From Fibrobacter sp. (lineage in GTDB: Bacteria; Fibrobacterota; Fibrobacteria; Fibrobacterales; Fibrobacteraceae), in NCBI RefSeq assembly GCF_017545445.1, contig NZ_JAFWOM010000067.1:1-64000 (forward strand): a stretch of 64,000 nt of DNA, in the 5' to 3' direction. A model generated the notes under the pieces. It did no database searches. It saw only the letters and a program-made list of their open reading frames with translations, and had not been told where the DNA came from. Below, in pieces: positions 1,589 to 57,317 of this stretch. The position numbers and the translations under genes were made by a program. Numbering within the stretch: the first letter of the stretch is position 1; every line of letters begins with the position of its first letter.

Positions 1589-2599
1589 ATGTCTGGAATA
1601 ATTCGATTTGCACCAAGTCCCACAGGCTACCTCCACGAAGGCCACTTGCTTTCGGCTCTTTACGTATGGGCTGCTGCTAAGAAATGGGATTTAAAGGTCC
1701 ACTTGCGAATCGAAGACCACGACCAAAGCCGTGCACGCCCCGCCTACATTGCAGGCATCCGCGAAGATTTAGCGTGGCTCGGGTTCCGCTACGATTCCGA
1801 AAGCATCCAAAGCGCTCGAAACTCCATTTACGAGGCGGCCCTCCACAAGCTCGAAGCAAAATCGCTCGTCTATCCGTGCTATTGCAGCCGCAAACAGCTC
1901 CAAGAAGAAAACCCCAAGAGCGAAACCGGCGAAATCGTGTATCAGGGGAAGTGTTTTTATAGACGAGAGATGTGGTTCGACAAAAGGTCACTGTGGTTCG
2001 ACAGGCTCACCAACCTTATGCCGAAGTGCACCAACCTAGATAAAAGGCCAGAGATGAGGGAAAAAAATAAGGACACTGCCTGTGCTGAGCATTGTCGAAG
2101 CAAGCCTGCCGAAGTGAACCAAATGGAGCCGCACAACTTGCGATTCATCGTTCCTAACCGTTTTATCGACTGGCACGACTTGCGACTGGGCGATTTCCAC
2201 GAGAATCCGAAACTCCAGTGTGGCGACTTCCCGATTCGCGACCGCGAAAACCAATGGACGTATCAATTCGCCGTCTGCGTCGATGACATCGACGAAAACA
2301 TCACGCATATCGTCCGAGGCGAGGATATCCGCAATTCCACAGCCCGACAAATTGCGTTAATGCAAGCTCTTGGGCGCACAAAACTTCCAATTTACTTACA
2401 TCATCCTTTAATTTTTGACACAAACAATAAAAAACTTTCGAAACGCGAACTCGCCCACAGTTTAAGGCAAGACAAAGAGGCAGGCATCACCCCCGAAATG
2501 CTTTTCGGACGCGTCCTCCACAAGGCACTCCACACCGAAAAAAATGCCCCGATTTCACTTAATGATGCGATTTACATCACTATGCAAAGTCTCCCTTAA
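1589..2599 (+). CDS. gluQ: Glutamyl-Q tRNA(Asp) synthetase-like protein with a repeat-derived insertion
   Basis: A 336-residue class I aminoacyl-tRNA synthetase catalytic domain without an anticodon-binding domain, as in GluQ-RS, which glutamylates queuosine of tRNA(Asp). Seen: RFAPSPTGYLHEGHL with the HIGH-type motif HEGH (16-19), IEDHDQSR near 41, YPCYCSR near 95, THIVRGED, and the KMSKS-type KLSKR at 282-286. Between GEIVYQGKC and EPHNLRFIVPN there is an insertion of about 55-60 residues (roughly 124-180) whose DNA is intergenic-type palindromic repeat, kept open in frame. A truncated glutamyl-tRNA synthetase is a less likely reading. The start at 1589 immediately precedes the conserved N-terminus; no clear Shine-Dalgarno is seen. 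Confidence 0.82.
   Translation: MSGIIRFAPSPTGYLHEGHLLSALYVWAAAKKWDLKVHLRIEDHDQSRARPAYIAGIREDLAWLGFRYDSESIQSARNSIYEAALHKLEAKSLVYPCYCSRKQLQEENPKSETGEIVYQGKCFYRREMWFDKRSLWFDRLTNLMPKCTNLDKRPEMREKNKDTACAEHCRSKPAEVNQMEPHNLRFIVPNRFIDWHDLRLGDFHENPKLQCGDFPIRDRENQWTYQFAVCVDDIDENITHIVRGEDIRNSTARQIALMQALGRTKLPIYLHHPLIFDTNNKKLSKRELAHSLRQDKEAGITPEMLFGRVLHKALHTEKNAPISLNDAIYITMQSLP
1956..2130 (+). repeat. Palindromic repeat insertion inside the gluQ-like gene
   Basis: It begins with the low-complexity word AGACGAGAGA, also seen between genes near 57200. Bases 1972-2037 are identical, in inverted orientation, to intergenic 55740-55805. The unit carries the core TTCGACAGGCTCACCAACC with complementary GGTT/AACC arms. 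A second unit, TGCT-GAGCATTGTCGA-AGCA, is at 2086-2103. The insert length keeps the reading frame open. Confidence 0.85.
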
Positions 2600-2632: not shown

Positions 2633-5600
2633 ATGGCATCAACTTCAATGTCTGCGACAATAGAAAAGATTCGCGAAGAAGCAACAGTGTTTGAGAGTAG
2701 GGACCTTCTGCTCTGTTTTTCGCAAAAGAACAAATTTCAATCTCCGTTACTTATTGATTACGGTGACCAGTTTTACGAGACTTGGCTAAAAGAAATTAAG
2801 CCGCGAACACTCGCGTCCTTTTTTCCCATTTCTTCAAAATACGACGAAGAACACCAAAAGGCCGATTTGGAAAATTTCCGCAAAATTCTCCAATCCAAAA
2901 GGGACGACTTCTGCACCCAAGATTTGTACATGGTGACAGGTTTCGTCAAATGGGGCGAAAAGACTCTCGCACCGGCGTTACTCATTCCATTAGATTACAA
3001 TTTCGAACATGATACCGTTGCGATATCTTCACGATTCCCCATCGAGAATATCGCCCTCCAGTCGCAAGACCAGAATACCAAATTTCCGGTCGCATCCGAC
3101 TTCATCAAAAATGACATTTTTGATATTAAAAAGTTTTTTGACACGCTCGAAAAAAAGATTGCCTCAAAGACTGATTGGAAATTCACGCGCAATGGTTGCT
3201 GCATCATGTTCTACAGCACCAACAAGCTGCTCCTCAAAAGGAACTTGTCCAACGAAAGCTGGGCAACCGCCAAAGTCGCGAACAACACATTTTTCAACGC
3301 CACCATCGGAAACGATGGATTCTTGCCACAGCCGTCTCTTTTTGAAGAAACGACTTACGACCACGTCTTTAATCCGGCGAACCACTACTTCCCTTATACA
3401 ACCGATTCGCAGACGAACAAGGCGGCCATAGACGCCCTCAACGAGCAAGCGACCGCCTACGCCATACAGACGCTCCCCGGTTCTGACAAATCGAAGCTCG
3501 CCGTAAACATCGTTGCTGACCTGGTCCAGCAAAAGAAGAAAGTCTGCGTCATAAGCCGCAGAGCCATTACAAAACTGAATTTCGAAACCGCTTGGAAACC
3601 ACCGTTCCGTTCGTTCCAAAGTCCTGAACGCGATACGCTCCAAAAGGTATTGAACGAAACTCGTGCAAATTTTGTCGCCTACAACGACTTGGTGAACTAT
3701 CCCATCAAGCCAAGCGGAGCAAAACTCACAGAACTGCTTGACGAAGTTTCCAAAATCAAACCGATAAAGACAAAGTTTTCTAGCGAAATTTTCAAGAACA
3801 TCGACAAGGTTCCTTATTCAAAATACAAGTCCATGCTTGCCAGTCTCAAGCAGATGACGCAGCTGTTCTTTGAACAAAACGGAATCGAAGTTTATGACTC
3901 GTTCTACGATATTAAAATGCCCGCGTTTTCGCAAGACCGCAAGAGTTCGGTCGGCGAAGACTTGGAGCATGCCAAGGAACTGATTGAAAAGATAAAGCCA
4001 TTCTTGGAATGTACCAAGAAATCAAACCTCTATCCCTGCGGATTGAAGCTTGCCGACCTTCCAGATTTAATCAATCTTTTCAAGAAAAGTTTCGAAAACG
4101 ATTTGCCTGGATTTGAAGACTGGAACCTCCATTCCAACGGCTGGGTTGCCTATCAAGACGACTTGATGGACTTGCCCAATGCGGGTGCTCGCTGGTCGAA
4201 CTACCGCCGCAGGGGTTCCGACGTCTATACGGATAACGCCATAGACGAAAATGTTTTCGACGCACGAAACGAATTTGTAGATAGCCTGAGTTCTACACTC
4301 CGAAGTCTCTCGGACCATTACCGCCGGCCCAAGCGATTCTTGCTCACCGTTTTCAAAAATCCCAAGAGCATAATCTCCGACGAAATGTTGGTCGAAAAAA
4401 TCGATGCGCTCATTGAACTGCAAGATTGCAAGCACAAGTACAAGGATTCCTCAGTCCTTGCCATGCGCCTGTTCGGTAAAGACTGGAAATTTGAAAAGAC
4501 GGATTGGAAAGAACTTTCAGAAAAAATCCATTCCTTCTACTCGTTCCGTGCAAGGAACAAGAATAGCGAGGACTTCGATCATCTGATCCACGTCCTTGAG
4601 CAATGGCACCTCTTCAGGCCATTCGTAGATGAACTGGACGACCTGCTGTCGAACATTGAATTTTTGCAAAAATGCTTACAAACAATAAGCAAGTCTCTGA
4701 ACTTGGAAGAATCCATCGACAACGATAACGTAGATATTTGGATTGAAAAAATCGAGTCTTGGTCAAGCCATTGGGACGAGCAAGACGTTTACTTGCAACT
4801 TTGCGAGCACATGGACAACATCTCTGATTCGCCGTGTGAAAATCTTGCAAATTTCGTAAGAGATTCCAAGAACGCAAACATGGATATAGCCATGGCTTTT
4901 GCCCGGACCTGGACCAGCAGCCAGATGCATGCAGTGGCCGCAAAATGCCCTGGGGTGTTCACGACAACATCTAAAAACAGAAAGCAGAAGAGTGCCCAAT
5001 ACAGAGCACTGCTAGACCAGTTCTCCAATGCCAATTTCCGTGAAGCTCATGCGCTCGTCGAAAAGCACCCGCAACTGCTTCAAAGCGTTACTTTGCCACA
5101 AACATTCGAACAAGATTTCGGTTCCTTTGACGTGGCTCTGTTCTTAGATGCTGACTGCACGACCATCGCCGAAGCCATGCCAGGAATCAACAATTCCAAA
5201 AAGGCCATTCTATTTGGCAACCCTTGTTCGCCATCGTTAGAAAAGCTCCCGATAGATGCCTGCGATACTGAATTATCCCAGCAGTCCATCTTCTTTAAGG
5301 ACAACATGCTTTCGGCATCGATCCGCAAAGGAATTCCGACTAGAGTTATCGGTTACACGTCGCAATACGCGGATCCGGTTCTTTTTGATTTTGCGAACAA
5401 GAACATTTACAACAACGAAATTGTGCAATTTTCAAATTCAACCTTACCCACAAGCAAGTTGCACACCATTAAAGTTGTTCGTAATACAATTTCTGCCATT
5501 GCAGAACACGCGCTGTTGCACGCAGCACGGAATTCTAGCCAGACGCTAGGCATCGTGACATTCAATCAAGCGCACTGTGAAGAAATTGAAGCGGAACTTC

Positions 5601-6733
5601 AAAAGGCTTTAGAAAAGTATCCAGCACAAGCAAAGTTCTTCACACAAGGTAATTTACAGAACAAGTTCTACATTAAGACAATTGAGCGTGCTGTTGATTT
5701 GTATCGCGACGTCATTTTCGTCTGCCCTGATATCGAGAGTGCCACAGCCACAACAGGAAGTCGCAAGCTTTCGATTTGCACCACCCTTGCAAAGCAAAAG
5801 CTCAGTTTGTTCATGACCAACGAAGATTCAGACAAACTCGCGAATTCCAAACCAGGCTTATTCCAGGAATGGGTGAATCAGCTCAATTCAAAATCGTTAC
5901 CAGAAGAAAAGTTCGATGAAAACATCATCGAATCGGCTCTTAGCGAACAAATTAAAGATGTATTTAAAGCAGAAGGTATTCCGTTCAAAGAGAGTATAGC
6001 GCAAGGCGGCATTCCAATTGGCCCAATCGTCAGTGATGCCTACAATTCCAAACGTTTCCTCGCTGTCATTGAAACCGATTCATGCAATGGACTTTATAAG
6101 GAATCCGTTGAAGACCGAGAATACCTGCGTCCGACCACACTTACAAAATTCGGGTGGAACATCTTCTACATTTGGCTTCCGCAATGGAATATATCCCATG
6201 CCGATGAAAAGGAAAACCTCATCACGACTATCGCGATTGAGCAAAGCGTTGCACCGCCACAGCAAGACAACGAAGAAAAAAGCGAAGATGCGGACGCACA
6301 AACTCAGTCTGCAAGTATCGAGCCTTATGTTGTAGAACATCCGCCTATCGAAGGGACTGCCGACGACTTGCCCATTTTGGAACTTTCGGCAAGTCAACTC
6401 ATCCAGCAGTTGAAGTTCTATGTCGATCACGAAAGCCCTATCCACTGCGAACTCTTGTTGCAAAGGATTCTGGACCTGCACCATATCGAACGTGTCGGTC
6501 CAAAGATGAATTCTGTCTTGACCGAGACCATCAAGCAAGCCTTGCACGAGAAGCAGTTTATCAAGACTGGGCAATTCTTCTACTCGCTTTCGAACAAGGA
6601 AGTAAAGATTCGCGACCGATCCAAGAGGCCCGACAACGAACGCAAGTTGGCTTACGTGTCCCCAGAAGAACGCGCACTGTACAAATCCTCATTCGACGAA
6701 AGCAGCATCAAGCAATCGTTGGGAGTGGTGTAG
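2633..6733 (+). CDS. DUF4011/DUF3320-family helicase-like protein with degenerate catalytic motifs
   Basis: A 1366-residue protein with the full architecture of large DUF4011 - SF1 helicase (AAA_11/AAA_12) - Vsr-like nuclease - DUF3320 proteins. Seen: DUF4011-like N-terminus (about 20-140, including LYMVTGFVKWGE); P-loop region near 283 reading LPGSDKSKL where the family has GPPGTGKSQT; motif II FDVALFLDADC near 834-842 for FDxxxFDEAS; YTSQYADP for HYRSRHE; ERAVDLYRD (1018-1026) for ENVQGDERD; TTLAK (1050-1054) for TRAR; a nuclease-like segment ending FGWNIFYIWLPQW; and a DUF3320-like C-terminus (SPIHCELLLQRIL). The fold is kept throughout while the ATPase, arginine and nuclease residues are changed, so I infer a pseudoenzyme. 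Start at 2633; a TATATT box lies 6 nt upstream. The C-terminal half has a Glu/Asp/Gln-rich linker near residue 1215-1240. Confidence 0.75.
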   Translation: MASTSMSATIEKIREEATVFESRDLLLCFSQKNKFQSPLLIDYGDQFYETWLKEIKPRTLASFFPISSKYDEEHQKADLENFRKILQSKRDDFCTQDLYMVTGFVKWGEKTLAPALLIPLDYNFEHDTVAISSRFPIENIALQSQDQNTKFPVASDFIKNDIFDIKKFFDTLEKKIASKTDWKFTRNGCCIMFYSTNKLLLKRNLSNESWATAKVANNTFFNATIGNDGFLPQPSLFEETTYDHVFNPANHYFPYTTDSQTNKAAIDALNEQATAYAIQTLPGSDKSKLAVNIVADLVQQKKKVCVISRRAITKLNFETAWKPPFRSFQSPERDTLQKVLNETRANFVAYNDLVNYPIKPSGAKLTELLDEVSKIKPIKTKFSSEIFKNIDKVPYSKYKSMLASLKQMTQLFFEQNGIEVYDSFYDIKMPAFSQDRKSSVGEDLEHAKELIEKIKPFLECTKKSNLYPCGLKLADLPDLINLFKKSFENDLPGFEDWNLHSNGWVAYQDDLMDLPNAGARWSNYRRRGSDVYTDNAIDENVFDARNEFVDSLSSTLRSLSDHYRRPKRFLLTVFKNPKSIISDEMLVEKIDALIELQDCKHKYKDSSVLAMRLFGKDWKFEKTDWKELSEKIHSFYSFRARNKNSEDFDHLIHVLEQWHLFRPFVDELDDLLSNIEFLQKCLQTISKSLNLEESIDNDNVDIWIEKIESWSSHWDEQDVYLQLCEHMDNISDSPCENLANFVRDSKNANMDIAMAFARTWTSSQMHAVAAKCPGVFTTTSKNRKQKSAQYRALLDQFSNANFREAHALVEKHPQLLQSVTLPQTFEQDFGSFDVALFLDADCTTIAEAMPGINNSKKAILFGNPCSPSLEKLPIDACDTELSQQSIFFKDNMLSASIRKGIPTRVIGYTSQYADPVLFDFANKNIYNNEIVQFSNSTLPTSKLHTIKVVRNTISAIAEHALLHAARNSSQTLGIVTFNQAHCEEIEAELQKALEKYPAQAKFFTQGNLQNKFYIKTIERAVDLYRDVIFVCPDIESATATTGSRKLSICTTLAKQKLSLFMTNEDSDKLANSKPGLFQEWVNQLNSKSLPEEKFDENIIESALSEQIKDVFKAEGIPFKESIAQGGIPIGPIVSDAYNSKRFLAVIETDSCNGLYKESVEDREYLRPTTLTKFGWNIFYIWLPQWNISHADEKENLITTIAIEQSVAPPQQDNEEKSEDADAQTQSASIEPYVVEHPPIEGTADDLPILELSASQLIQQLKFYVDHESPIHCELLLQRILDLHHIERVGPKMNSVLTETIKQALHEKQFIKTGQFFYSLSNKEVKIRDRSKRPDNERKLAYVSPEERALYKSSFDESSIKQSLGVV

Positions 6734-6913
6734 TCGTTAGACGATAGACTATAGACTATAGACGAAAGGTCAAAGCAAACTGTCATCCCGGCCTCTGTGC
6801 CGGGATCAGTTGTTTATGGAAAAACACAGGCCCCGGCCCTTCGGCATGGTTCGGCAGGCTCACCAACCGAGCTCAGGGACCTTAATCCGGGGTGACATCA
6901 CTTCAGAAAATTG
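6734..6913. repeat. Composite intergenic repeat, copy 1
   Basis: It starts with a short-period run (AGACGATAGACTATAGACTA) at 6739-6770. Then comes a palindrome TCCCGGCctctgtGCCGGGA and a block GGCCCCGGCCCTTCGGC...CCGGGGTGACATC. Bases 6774-6814 and 6829-6905 recur exactly at 7321-7361 and 7376-7452, both offset by 547 nt. The GGTTCGGCAGGCTCACCAACC core inside it is the same family as the unit in the gluQ-like gene. Confidence 0.9.
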
Positions 6914-7264: not shown

Positions 7265-7461
7265 AAAAACAACGTACAAAAAAACAGGCCCCGGAACGGA
7301 GTCCGGGGTGACATCACTTCAGCAAACTGTCATCCCGGCCTCTGTGCCGGGATCAGTTGTTACCGATAGAAAGCTGGCCCCGGCCCTTCGGCATGGTTCG
7401 GCAGGCTCACCAACCGAGCTCAGGGACCTTAATCCGGGGTGACATCACTTCAAAATATACA
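7265..7461. repeat. Composite intergenic repeat, copy 2
   Basis: It contains a half unit GGCCCCGGAACGGAGTCCGG...GTGACATCACTTCAG (7284-7321) followed by the second copy of the composite element (7321-7361 and 7376-7452) that also lies on the other side of the GIY-YIG gene in the same orientation. Confidence 0.9.
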
Positions 7462-12836: not shown

Positions 12837-13310
12837 ATATTTCATCCATTTGGTTTTTAAAGCCAATGAGGCAAACAAAAAGACCGGCCTTCTTATAAGC
12901 CACACCGTAATGAAATCTAAATTTTTAATTTGGAAAAAGAAATTTTTTCTTGTAAAGAATTGTGAAAAAAAATTTATATAAGGAAATATACCGTTTAAAT
13001 CACAATTTCTTAACATGTTTTGTAAATTTTGAGTTACAAACAAGCTAAAGTAATTTTAAGTTTACATTCTCACCGTGATATAGACTGTATCATGGGTGTA
13101 TTGTATAGAAAAGAGGGTATGAGCACGGAATGGTTCGGCAAGCTCACCAACCTAAATCCGGGGTGACAGATGTGAGAAGTACCGTGTAAGCGAGAGTCGC
13201 AACCAACGACTAATGACCAACGACCAAGGACTATTGACTAACAACCAATGACCAATAACCAAAAAAGGACTTATATTTGCAGTGTGTCCGCGATCACGCG
13301 AGGGAGTTTT
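12837..13310. promoter_or_regulatory. Intergenic region between fibro-slime and FHA-GGDEF genes
   Basis: For the fibro-slime gene (minus strand) a sigma70-like promoter reads TTAAGA (13008-13013), 17-nt spacer, TATATT (12985-12990), leaving a leader of about 140 nt. An inverted repeat AATTGTGA (12958-12965) / TCACAATT (13000-13007) brackets the -10 box and could be an operator. From 13128 to 13258 lie a GGTTCGGCAAGCTCACCAACC repeat unit and a short-period run of CAACGACTAATGACC type. No other gene is visible. Confidence 0.5.
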
Positions 13311-54481: not shown

Positions 54482-55642
54482 ATGTTTTTTGAACAAGCCA
54501 TCGCCAACAATCTCCCGAATTACACCAAGGAATCCGATTCCGCTTACGGCGAGACTCTTGCCCCGCTCGAATACAAGGAAGAGCTCAAGGTCAAGAACGC
54601 CGCTATCCGTGAATTTTGGGATGTCAACCGCCTTGCTCGTGGCCCGCAACCGATTATCGCAAGTCCGATGCCGCGCAATTACCGCACCACGTCCAAGCGC
54701 CAAGTCGAAATGAAGCCGGGCGATTTGCGTTTTAACGAATACGATAGTATCTTGGAACCCGAAGAGCACAATGCGATTTACCGTTTGCTGTTCGACAAGC
54801 TCATTACGCCGGCGTACAAGCCGCTCGCCTACGCGCTCAACTGGATTATCATCCGCGGCACGTACAAGTACCGCGTCGTGATTTTCAACGTGAAAAAACT
54901 GGACGCAAGCATTGTCCGCAAGTTGAAACAAATTGCAGAAGTTTTGCAGCAGTGCCCGTACCACGTGACGGCGGCGCACACTTACGTCGATACTACGGAA
55001 TCGAACTACTATCTCGAAGCGAAGCGCCCGACAGACACGCTCAACTTCAAACAGCTTTACGGCCCGCGTGAACTTTCGCTGGACCTCGGCCATTTCAGGC
55101 TCAAATACCCGGTGACGGGTTTCAGCCAAATTAACGAAAGCCAGATTCACAACCTCATCAAGTCCGCAAGCCGCTTGCTTGGCCTTGAAAAGGGCGACCA
55201 CTTCTTGGACCTTTACTGCGGTTACGGCCTCTTCAGTTTTGCACTCGGCGAAGCCGCCAAGTCTGTACTCGGCGTGGAATGGGAAGGCCCGTCCATCGAT
55301 TGCGCGAAGGCTTCCGCCAGATTCTTGAAGAAAAATTACAAGTTCATCGCAGGCAAGATTGACGAGACGTTCGTGCAGATGCGACTCCCGCGGCCGATCC
55401 CTGGCGAACCAGAACGCATTTTGCTGGACCCGCCACGCAAGGGAACCGAACCCGGCGTGATTCGCGCGCTTGCTTTGCGCAAGCCCGTCCGCGTGCTGCA
55501 CATTTTCTGCGGCACGGACGAAATCCCGGATGCCCTCGCCGAATGGGAACGTTTTGGCTACCGCGTCAAGGAAGTGCTGCCGCTCGACTTGTTCCCGGGC
55601 ACGCCGCACCTCGAAACGCTCGTCGCGCTGGAAAGAAAGTAA
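54482..55642 (+). CDS. RNA m5U methyltransferase (TrmA/RlmC/RlmD family)
   Basis: A 386-residue SAM-dependent RNA (uracil-5) methyltransferase. Motifs: PVTGFSQINESQ (about 216), DLYCGYGLFSFALG (motif I, about 240), LLDPPRKGTEPGVI (about 318) and the end DLFPGTPHLETLVALER. The nucleophile Cys is in VLHIFCGTDEIPDAL; relatives usually read SCNP there, so two neighbouring residues differ. No N-terminal TRAM domain or 4Fe-4S cysteine set is seen. The target (tRNA U54 or 23S rRNA) cannot be told. The ATG at 54482 has AAGGA 6 nt upstream. Confidence 0.87.
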   Translation: MFFEQAIANNLPNYTKESDSAYGETLAPLEYKEELKVKNAAIREFWDVNRLARGPQPIIASPMPRNYRTTSKRQVEMKPGDLRFNEYDSILEPEEHNAIYRLLFDKLITPAYKPLAYALNWIIIRGTYKYRVVIFNVKKLDASIVRKLKQIAEVLQQCPYHVTAAHTYVDTTESNYYLEAKRPTDTLNFKQLYGPRELSLDLGHFRLKYPVTGFSQINESQIHNLIKSASRLLGLEKGDHFLDLYCGYGLFSFALGEAAKSVLGVEWEGPSIDCAKASARFLKKNYKFIAGKIDETFVQMRLPRPIPGEPERILLDPPRKGTEPGVIRALALRKPVRVLHIFCGTDEIPDALAEWERFGYRVKEVLPLDLFPGTPHLETLVALERK

Positions 55643-55924
55643 ATAGGAGTTAGGTTTTAGGGGATAGGGATTAGGAAATATAGTAATTGGAGCCGTTAAT
55701 AGAACTGCGAAGCCTATGATAGCCTTTAGCCCCGAATTAAGGTTGGTGCACTTCGGCATAAGGTTGGTGAGCCTGTCGAACCACAGTGACCTTTTGTCGA
55801 ACCACCGAGCCGGGGGATAGAATCCAGTCTAGTTCCTATCGGCCTTTGGCCTCCAGAATGACAAGGACGAGTTCGTCCAAAGCATTGATTCCTTTTTTCT
55901 ATCTTTGTGCTGGGGTATTTGATT
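55643..55924. repeat. Intergenic repeats including the twin of the gluQ insertion
   Basis: A GTTAGGTTTTAGGGGATAGG short-period run at 55650-55676. Bases 55740-55805 are identical, inverted, to 1972-2037. An AGAATCCAGT...CCAGAATGACAAGG unit follows at 55820-55866. Confidence 0.9.
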
Positions 55925-57151: not shown

Positions 57152-57317
57152 TACTAGACGAAAGAACGCCGCTTAGGTTGGTGAGCTTGCCGAACCACGC
57201 GGCTATAGACGAAAGACGAGAGAAAGTAAACAGTGGTTAGTGGTTAGGATTGTATATAATAACGTTCCCATTGCATTCCTGTTTACTAATCACTGTTTAC
57301 TAACCACTTTTAAAAAC
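57152..57317. repeat. Intergenic repeats
   Basis: AGGTTGGTGAGCTTGCCGAA followed by CCAC at 57174-57197, then AGACGAAAGACGAGAGAAAG and two runs of TTTACTAA.CACT type around 57225-57310. Confidence 0.65.

Follow-up and report, generated by a model that had tools for sequence, protein, structure and literature searches.

Dispersed repeats lie in frame within a predicted disordered loop of a Fibrobacter glutamyl-queuosine tRNA(Asp) synthetase

How does a conserved tRNA-modifying enzyme come to carry a dispersed DNA repeat within its reading frame? The question is raised by a gluQ-like gene in a 64,000-nucleotide stretch of Fibrobacter sp. DNA (the window). A preliminary description of this stretch had named the gene a glutamyl-Q-tRNA(Asp) synthetase-like gene and had placed a mobile palindromic repeat inside it, in frame, between a conserved block ending in QGKC and another starting with EPHNLRF. 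The assignment is borne out by a match to the NCBIfam model TIGR03838 (E 6e-70), which falls under the curated cut-off, the match being in two parts, and by a Foldseek match of the encoded protein to E. coli GluQRS (4a91, TMt 0.76), with 1nzj as a further fold match. The protein has the class I catalytic core and the zinc cysteine set of GluQRS and carries no anticodon-binding domain, and the catalytic and zinc-site residues (H16, G18, H19, K282-R286, C97, C99, Y118 and C122) are invariant in 18 GluQRS orthologues. By analogy with E. coli GluQRS, Cys122 of the YQGKC block would be the last zinc ligand. The position of the insert and the preservation of the frame are likewise upheld, as evident by a complete and intact ORF of 336 amino acids that runs through the repeat-filled loop.

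AlphaFold2 modeling with 18 sequences (the window protein and relatives) yields a confident GluQRS fold in which most of the protein outside the loop has a pLDDT above 80. Residues 131-177, which make up most of the loop, have a pLDDT below 50, and therefore the insert, whose placement had earlier been proposed as a subject for modeling, is predicted to be disordered. A second indel region of ~12 columns occurs in the C-terminal part, about 90-105 columns past the loop, and is far less variable. Directly downstream of the gene is an ORF of 1366 amino acids (window positions 2633-6733).

The loop after the zinc knuckle is built from several repeat-derived parts (Table 1). A heptamer array remnant, common to many relatives at the same loop, is followed by a 66-bp unit with one complete core and partial core repeats, and then by a diverged core on the other strand. 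The 66-bp unit and its twin, reported earlier as the same sequence in opposite orientation, are indeed identical over all 66 bp, and this identity ends abruptly, with the flanks of the two copies dissimilar at once on both sides. Also as first described, the twin is intergenic, lying between genes that end at 55642 and start near 55907; the sole ORF there, an antisense frame over the end of the twin, we take as spurious. A BLAST comparison of positions 1956-2130 with the whole genome returned the twin as the only other match to the full 66-mer (E 6e-28), together with 38 shorter matches. The two copies could owe their identity to gene conversion or to a recent move. The size of the insertion requires some revision. 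What had been given as about 175 bp is a variable loop of 174 bp, and the gain is not 55-60 residues but about 47-50, because the basal loop of relatives already has 8-11 amino acids.

Table 1. Features of the gluQ locus and copies of the repeat core in the window
Feature	Positions	Strand	Basis or remarks
gluQ-like gene (GluQRS, glutamyl-queuosine tRNA(Asp) synthetase)	1589..2599	+	TIGR03838, fold match, signature residues
Hypervariable loop, 58 aa, from YQGKC (zinc knuckle) to EPHNLRF	1955..2128	+	8-58 aa in 77 species; low pLDDT
Remnant of tandem heptamer array, AGACGAGAG, unit ACGAGAG	1960..1970	+	loop alignments
66-bp unit, exact inverted copy of 55740-55805	1972..2037	+	direct comparison, BLAST
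Complete palindromic core TGGTTCGACAGGCTCACCAACC, read as WFDRLTN	1994..2015	+	genome-wide copy search
Second core, diverged, GCTTCGACAATGCTCAGC with matching GC arms	2084..2101	-	direct sequence reading
Intergenic core copy	6847..6868	+	window search
Intergenic core copy	7394..7415	+	window search
Intergenic core copy	13131..13152	+	window search
Intergenic twin of the 66-bp unit (core 55762-55783)	55740..55805	-	direct comparison
Intergenic core copy	57176..57197	-	window search

The preliminary description presented the repeat as having a single twin, which is accurate for the exact 66-bp pair but not for the core within it. The 66-mer holds one complete copy of a family core, TGGTTCG(A/G)CA(A/G)GCTCACCAACC, and the genome-wide count that had been suggested, made with the 20-nt core as query, gave 105 copies at up to three mismatches, compared with two for the reversed pattern used as a control. 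Among 93 distinct copies inspected with their flanks, 45 lie in no ORF of at least 90 amino acids, and many others lie in named genes. Six copies are present in the window, five of them intergenic. At one mismatch, 53 of the 80 Fibrobacter species have the core in their genome, with the highest count (59) in this one. When the arms are freed, a phylum-wide sample of 151 genomes contains the relaxed pattern SSTTCGRCARGCTCASS in 99, with up to 175 matches per genome, whereas its control gave a handful of matches over all 151 genomes. Counts are high in this genome and in G075, G092 and G140, and G050 and G045 have no copy. The present assembly (4.88 Mb) is larger than those of its genus relatives (1.9-4.3 Mb) and is marked as 7% contaminated; its copy numbers may include a small amount of foreign or duplicate sequence.

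The core has a conserved, asymmetric 13-nt centre with covarying 3-bp arms on either side. Of 128 copies, 122, 114 and 120 have arm bases that can pair at offsets 1-3 from this centre, as against 70-77 expected from base composition, and the pairs occur in G-C, C-G and A-T forms, as is characteristic of compensatory change. Such covariation is the signature of an imperfect palindrome that is kept as such. The term ‘palindromic’ is therefore apt for the arms, but it does not extend to a strong RNA hairpin in the 66-mer, a candidate that was rejected because the predicted fold is not stronger than those of shuffled sequences (z -0.46). An inverted core partner lies within 120 bp of 16 of the 93 copies, mostly 32-57 bp away, although the control for this figure is inflated; inverted core pairs are also present in two other genomes (G140 and G120). 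Paired arms and a high, dispersed copy number are both features of REP-like palindromes, and the 66-bp unit is best explained as a composite derived from a REP-like family that became widespread in Fibrobacter genomes.

GluQRS is one of many proteins in this genome whose genes carry the core. About 20 further conserved genes contain the core in frame, including those for RecG, UvrB, TrpC-TrpF, TilS, ParB, SecA, TopB, HrpA, YidC, RluA, TolC, a nitrilase and a NUDIX hydrolase, and some genes hold more than one copy (two in GyrA, three in HrpB, and two sites in a DEAD helicase). The RecG insert provides 47 amino acids in place of 11 in the Thermotoga structure, and that of UvrB provides 92 in place of a 20-amino-acid linker before the UVR domain. 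ParB, SecA and TolC carry the core outside their conserved domain. The NUDIX hydrolase gene (L033:1181-1987) has a heptamer array, a core and another heptamer array directly after the Nudix box, and it may be disrupted, as the family match ends at this composite.

Five of the six frames of the core are open, and the choice among them is uneven. The core is read as GSTGSPT at 15 of 24 sites, as WFDRLTN at 4 (GluQRS included), as VRQAHQP and VGEPVEP at 2 each, and as LVSLSN at 1 (chi-square p 1e-5; GSTGSPT against an expectation of 1/5, binomial p 7e-6). These sites were assigned manually, and each lies in a gene that a family match supports to one or both sides of the core, with weaker support for L029, L032, L163 and L008. 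The count omits the Ser-rich L182 and ORFs without a name, together with L142 (BioF), because its core may precede the true start, and L178, which is arginase-like by eye and has no NCBIfam or PDB match. The resemblance of GSTGSPT to a flexible linker suggests filtering at the protein level, and part of the bias could stem from a target-site preference instead of selection.

A comparison with orthologues, also proposed earlier, was made with GluQRS from 77 Fibrobacter species. The loop is 8-14 amino acids long in 37 species and 15-58 in 40, and its length has a standard deviation of 12.8 amino acids, as opposed to 0.5 for the N-terminal part and 4.9 for the C-terminal part, which includes the further indel region. 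The insert is not conserved as part of the protein. The long loops contain at least eight unrelated repeat types rather than variants of one insert. These include tandem heptamers of four kinds (ACGAGAG, GGCTCGA, AGTCGGA and AATTCAA), the present core (in the window genome, G000, and in G078, G037 and G038), a unit read as VILSEA/HPERSEG (G022, G063, G018 and G025), a GGSLPL unit in six species, in some of which a VIPAQAGIS unit is nested within it, a unit read as SSWRATTRHLDSG (G026 and G070), and a single case (G060). Where this was tested, the insert proved to be a repeat of the host's own genome. The G072 loop has 45-56 matches in each of five related genomes, and the G022 loop has 44 in G022 and 44 in G063. 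The loops of these last two species differ by a single step, being identical over 52 and 30 bp with a net difference of 72 bp between these segments.

On a maximum likelihood tree of the protein sequence flanking the loop, 16 changes between short and long loops are required, 12 of which are forced by well-supported branches, and 26 changes when all insert classes are taken together. Three other species have the core at this position as well, a distribution that entails at least 3 changes on the gene tree and makes a single inherited insertion unlikely. Plain common descent of the core is thus disfavoured, although one gain followed by losses is conceivable, and its occurrence in GluQRS seems to reflect recurrence more than simple inheritance. 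The exact insertion event is unseen, as no really close strain was found in which the site in this GluQRS is empty. The coding frame is open in all 40 long loops, whereas 12 and 10 of these loops are open in the remaining two forward frames, and the length is divisible by three in every case. Given at least 12 independent events and a chance of roughly 28% for an alternative frame, the probability that all would be open is about 2e-7, an estimate that is rough because some of the 12 changes may be losses.

We consider it likely that selfish or passively copied repeats build up in disordered, permissive loops, the filter being what the protein tolerates. Copies would land, or be copied in by recombination, across the whole chromosome, and those surviving within genes would be the ones that keep the frame, introduce no stop codon and occupy exposed loops or linkers where sequence is unimportant. 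The GluQRS loop after the zinc knuckle would be such a site, tolerating 0-50 extra disordered residues, and would represent the extreme case because it appears to accept almost any sequence. It may have been filled, emptied and refilled with whichever repeats are abundant in each lineage, whether heptamer arrays, REP-like cores or 100-bp units, and copies once arrived could mutate, be deleted in frame or be overwritten. The insert peptide is presumably translated and tolerated with no dedicated function. We infer both the mobility of the core, which is probable given its dispersed distribution, and the mode of its movement, because no transposase could be tied to the family and no mobilising enzyme was found. 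A RAYT was rejected as mobiliser in this genome, which yields no match to the Y1 transposase family PF01797. This family is present in 27 of 80 genus genomes, and no core was found near the Y1 transposase loci at the three that were inspected.

The filling of the loop could instead be driven at the DNA level, with an old ACGAGAG array acting as a target or recombination partner so that homology, rather than permissiveness of the protein, makes the site a hotspot. Such arrays are present in 56 of 80 genus genomes (reversed control, 0), and many species of several clades start the loop with TTTTATAGACGAGAG or close variants. Furthermore, a heptamer array lies within 60 bp of 12 of the 93 cores, compared with 39 of 4000 random positions, and the array-core-array composite recurs in the NUDIX gene. 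However, the inserts of several clades (the GGSLPL, VILSEA and SSWRATT groups) carry no heptamer trace, and most intragenic cores, such as those in RecG, UvrB and GyrA, lie outside clean arrays. We therefore regard a hotspot as possible, though somewhat unlikely, and it can act together with protein tolerance. More doubtful is the proposal that the loop is a genus-wide repeat trap, in which a specific process, either recombination via heptamer arrays already in place or a putative mobiliser acting on the TTCGACARGCTCA family, would strongly favour this site over other permissive loops, such that one locus samples and replaces the repeats of each lineage.

Another explanation, which we consider improbable, is that the insert has been recruited and that selection maintains it for an effect on how GluQRS binds tRNA, on its stability or on its regulation. 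Long loops are found in 40 of 77 species, and the loop adjoins the zinc-binding part of the enzyme, both of which would fit such a role. However, the inserts share no peptide, being by turns charged, hydrophobic, Ser-rich or Cys-containing, the loop type can differ even between nearly identical enzymes (G088 and G025; G058 and G034), and the insert is predicted to be disordered. It is less probable still that gluQ is decaying in this strain and that a dying gene simply puts up with its insert. This insert ranks with the longest of the genus, but the ORF is intact and every signature residue is retained. The flanks share 85-88% amino acid identity with relatives, and their pairwise dN/dS of about 0.05, a rough figure because synonymous sites are near saturation, indicates purifying selection and strong constraint. 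Long inserts are also found in housekeeping genes such as uvrB and recG. The preliminary description had allowed that the gene might be dead in most strains, and this possibility is countered by the same dN/dS value and by the 77 species, in all of which the ORF is open. Finally, removal of the insert by intron-like splicing, or its omission by ribosomal bypassing, would fit precise in-frame, high-copy repeats within conserved proteins but is scarcely credible, since neither process requires the open frame and the length divisible by three found in all 40 long loops, and since the frame bias elsewhere favours a flexible linker peptide.

In-frame RPEs and intragenic REPs are established phenomena (PMC2229807, PMC3733652). 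RPEs of Rickettsia have been described in 19 reading frames, and an RPE-bearing guanylate kinase is active (Ogata et al., 2000, 2002, reviewed in PMC2229807). The parallel with RPEs drawn in the preliminary description holds for the way of working, as in both of these unrelated lineages dispersed palindromes lie in frame in conserved protein genes (here GluQRS and about 20 others) and are tolerated as extra peptide. It does not extend to membership, given the lack of a GTAG/CGTC tag and of a RAYT. Judged from the published descriptions, the repeats also differ in core and length. RPE-1, described from Rickettsia, measures 105-146 bp (PMC2229807), whereas the Fibrobacter core is about 22 bp and belongs to another phylum. 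Unlike RPEs, the core is often part of composites with heptamer arrays, and a single loop has been colonised by many unrelated repeats.

GTAG and CGTC REPs are palindromes of 20-40 bp with high copy number that form dimers and are in some cases intragenic, and CGTC REPs have no known transposase (PMC3733652). Intragenic REPs are known in uvrB, helicases, tRNA synthetases and pseudouridine synthases (PMC2229807, PMC3733652). The Fibrobacter core is similarly a high-copy palindrome that seems to lean, as these REPs do, to DNA repair and RNA-modifying genes, and, like CGTC REPs, it has no identified transposase. However, it differs from both groups in lacking a terminal tag and in having a stem of mostly 3 covarying bp. 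GTAG was not found at the core end, where the flanks are mostly (A/G)TGG and CCAA. The terminal CGTC/TGTC/CCTC tag with an 8-9 bp stem, typical of CGTC REPs (RPE-4 and RPE-6 included), is also absent, and TGTC occurs inside the centre only, on the reverse strand. Because it fails these tags and the link to RAYTs, we file the family as neither GTAG nor CGTC REP. Intragenic MITEs (ERIC/RU-1, YPAL/RU-2, RU-3 and the Neisseria 107-bp element) are small, non-autonomous elements with open frames that become fused in frame (PMC2759123, PMC2229807). They are about 100-170 bp long, and most have terminal inverted repeats, none of which were recognised in the Fibrobacter repeat. In cyanobacteria, the elements called STRRs are heptanucleotide tandem repeats. 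The ACGAGAG, GGCTCGA, AGTCGGA and AATTCAA arrays of Fibrobacter are likewise made of tandem 7-bp units, and they form part of a housekeeping enzyme's reading frame even though a 7-bp unit shifts the frame. Bacterial heptanucleotide tandem repeats have also been noted in PMC4692102.

In recB of two Xanthomonas, different REPs occupy about the same site, a single reported case (PMC3733652). Recurrent colonisation of one loop by unrelated repeats at the scale observed here looks new, and as far as the papers show, so do the phylum, the repeat family and the frame preference. Fibrobacter is absent from PMC3733652, literature searches with the core sequence returned chance oligonucleotides alone, and no paper on such repeats in Fibrobacter was found in the literature searched. 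Until now, in-frame repeats have been described mainly as one family in one lineage, as for RPEs in Rickettsia. The approximately 80 sequenced Fibrobacter species offer a replicated natural experiment in which one loop has gained and lost many repeat families, always in frame, and this natural record of proteins absorbing repetitive DNA is accompanied by genome-wide in-frame insertions with a measurable frame preference. Whether repeats seed new protein segments, and which filters act on them, can thus be tested directly by comparing species. A practical warning also follows, as loops annotated in the housekeeping proteins of Fibrobacter may derive from repeats.

Additional observations were made on individual core-bearing genes. 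In the RecG of 30 relatives, length varies at the insertion site, where Ser/Gly/Thr-rich segments often resemble GSTGSPT, and several species carry GSASSPT or ASASSAT peptides with the appearance of degraded copies of this core. Intragenic cores seem to be over-represented in DNA- and RNA-processing enzymes (ParB, RecG, UvrB, TopB, HrpA, HrpB, the DEAD helicase and GyrA), a tendency also described for REPs of other phyla. In HrpB (L171:377-3280), two of the three cores lie in a tandem duplication, DERRGSTNSTGSSTGSPTLTR.
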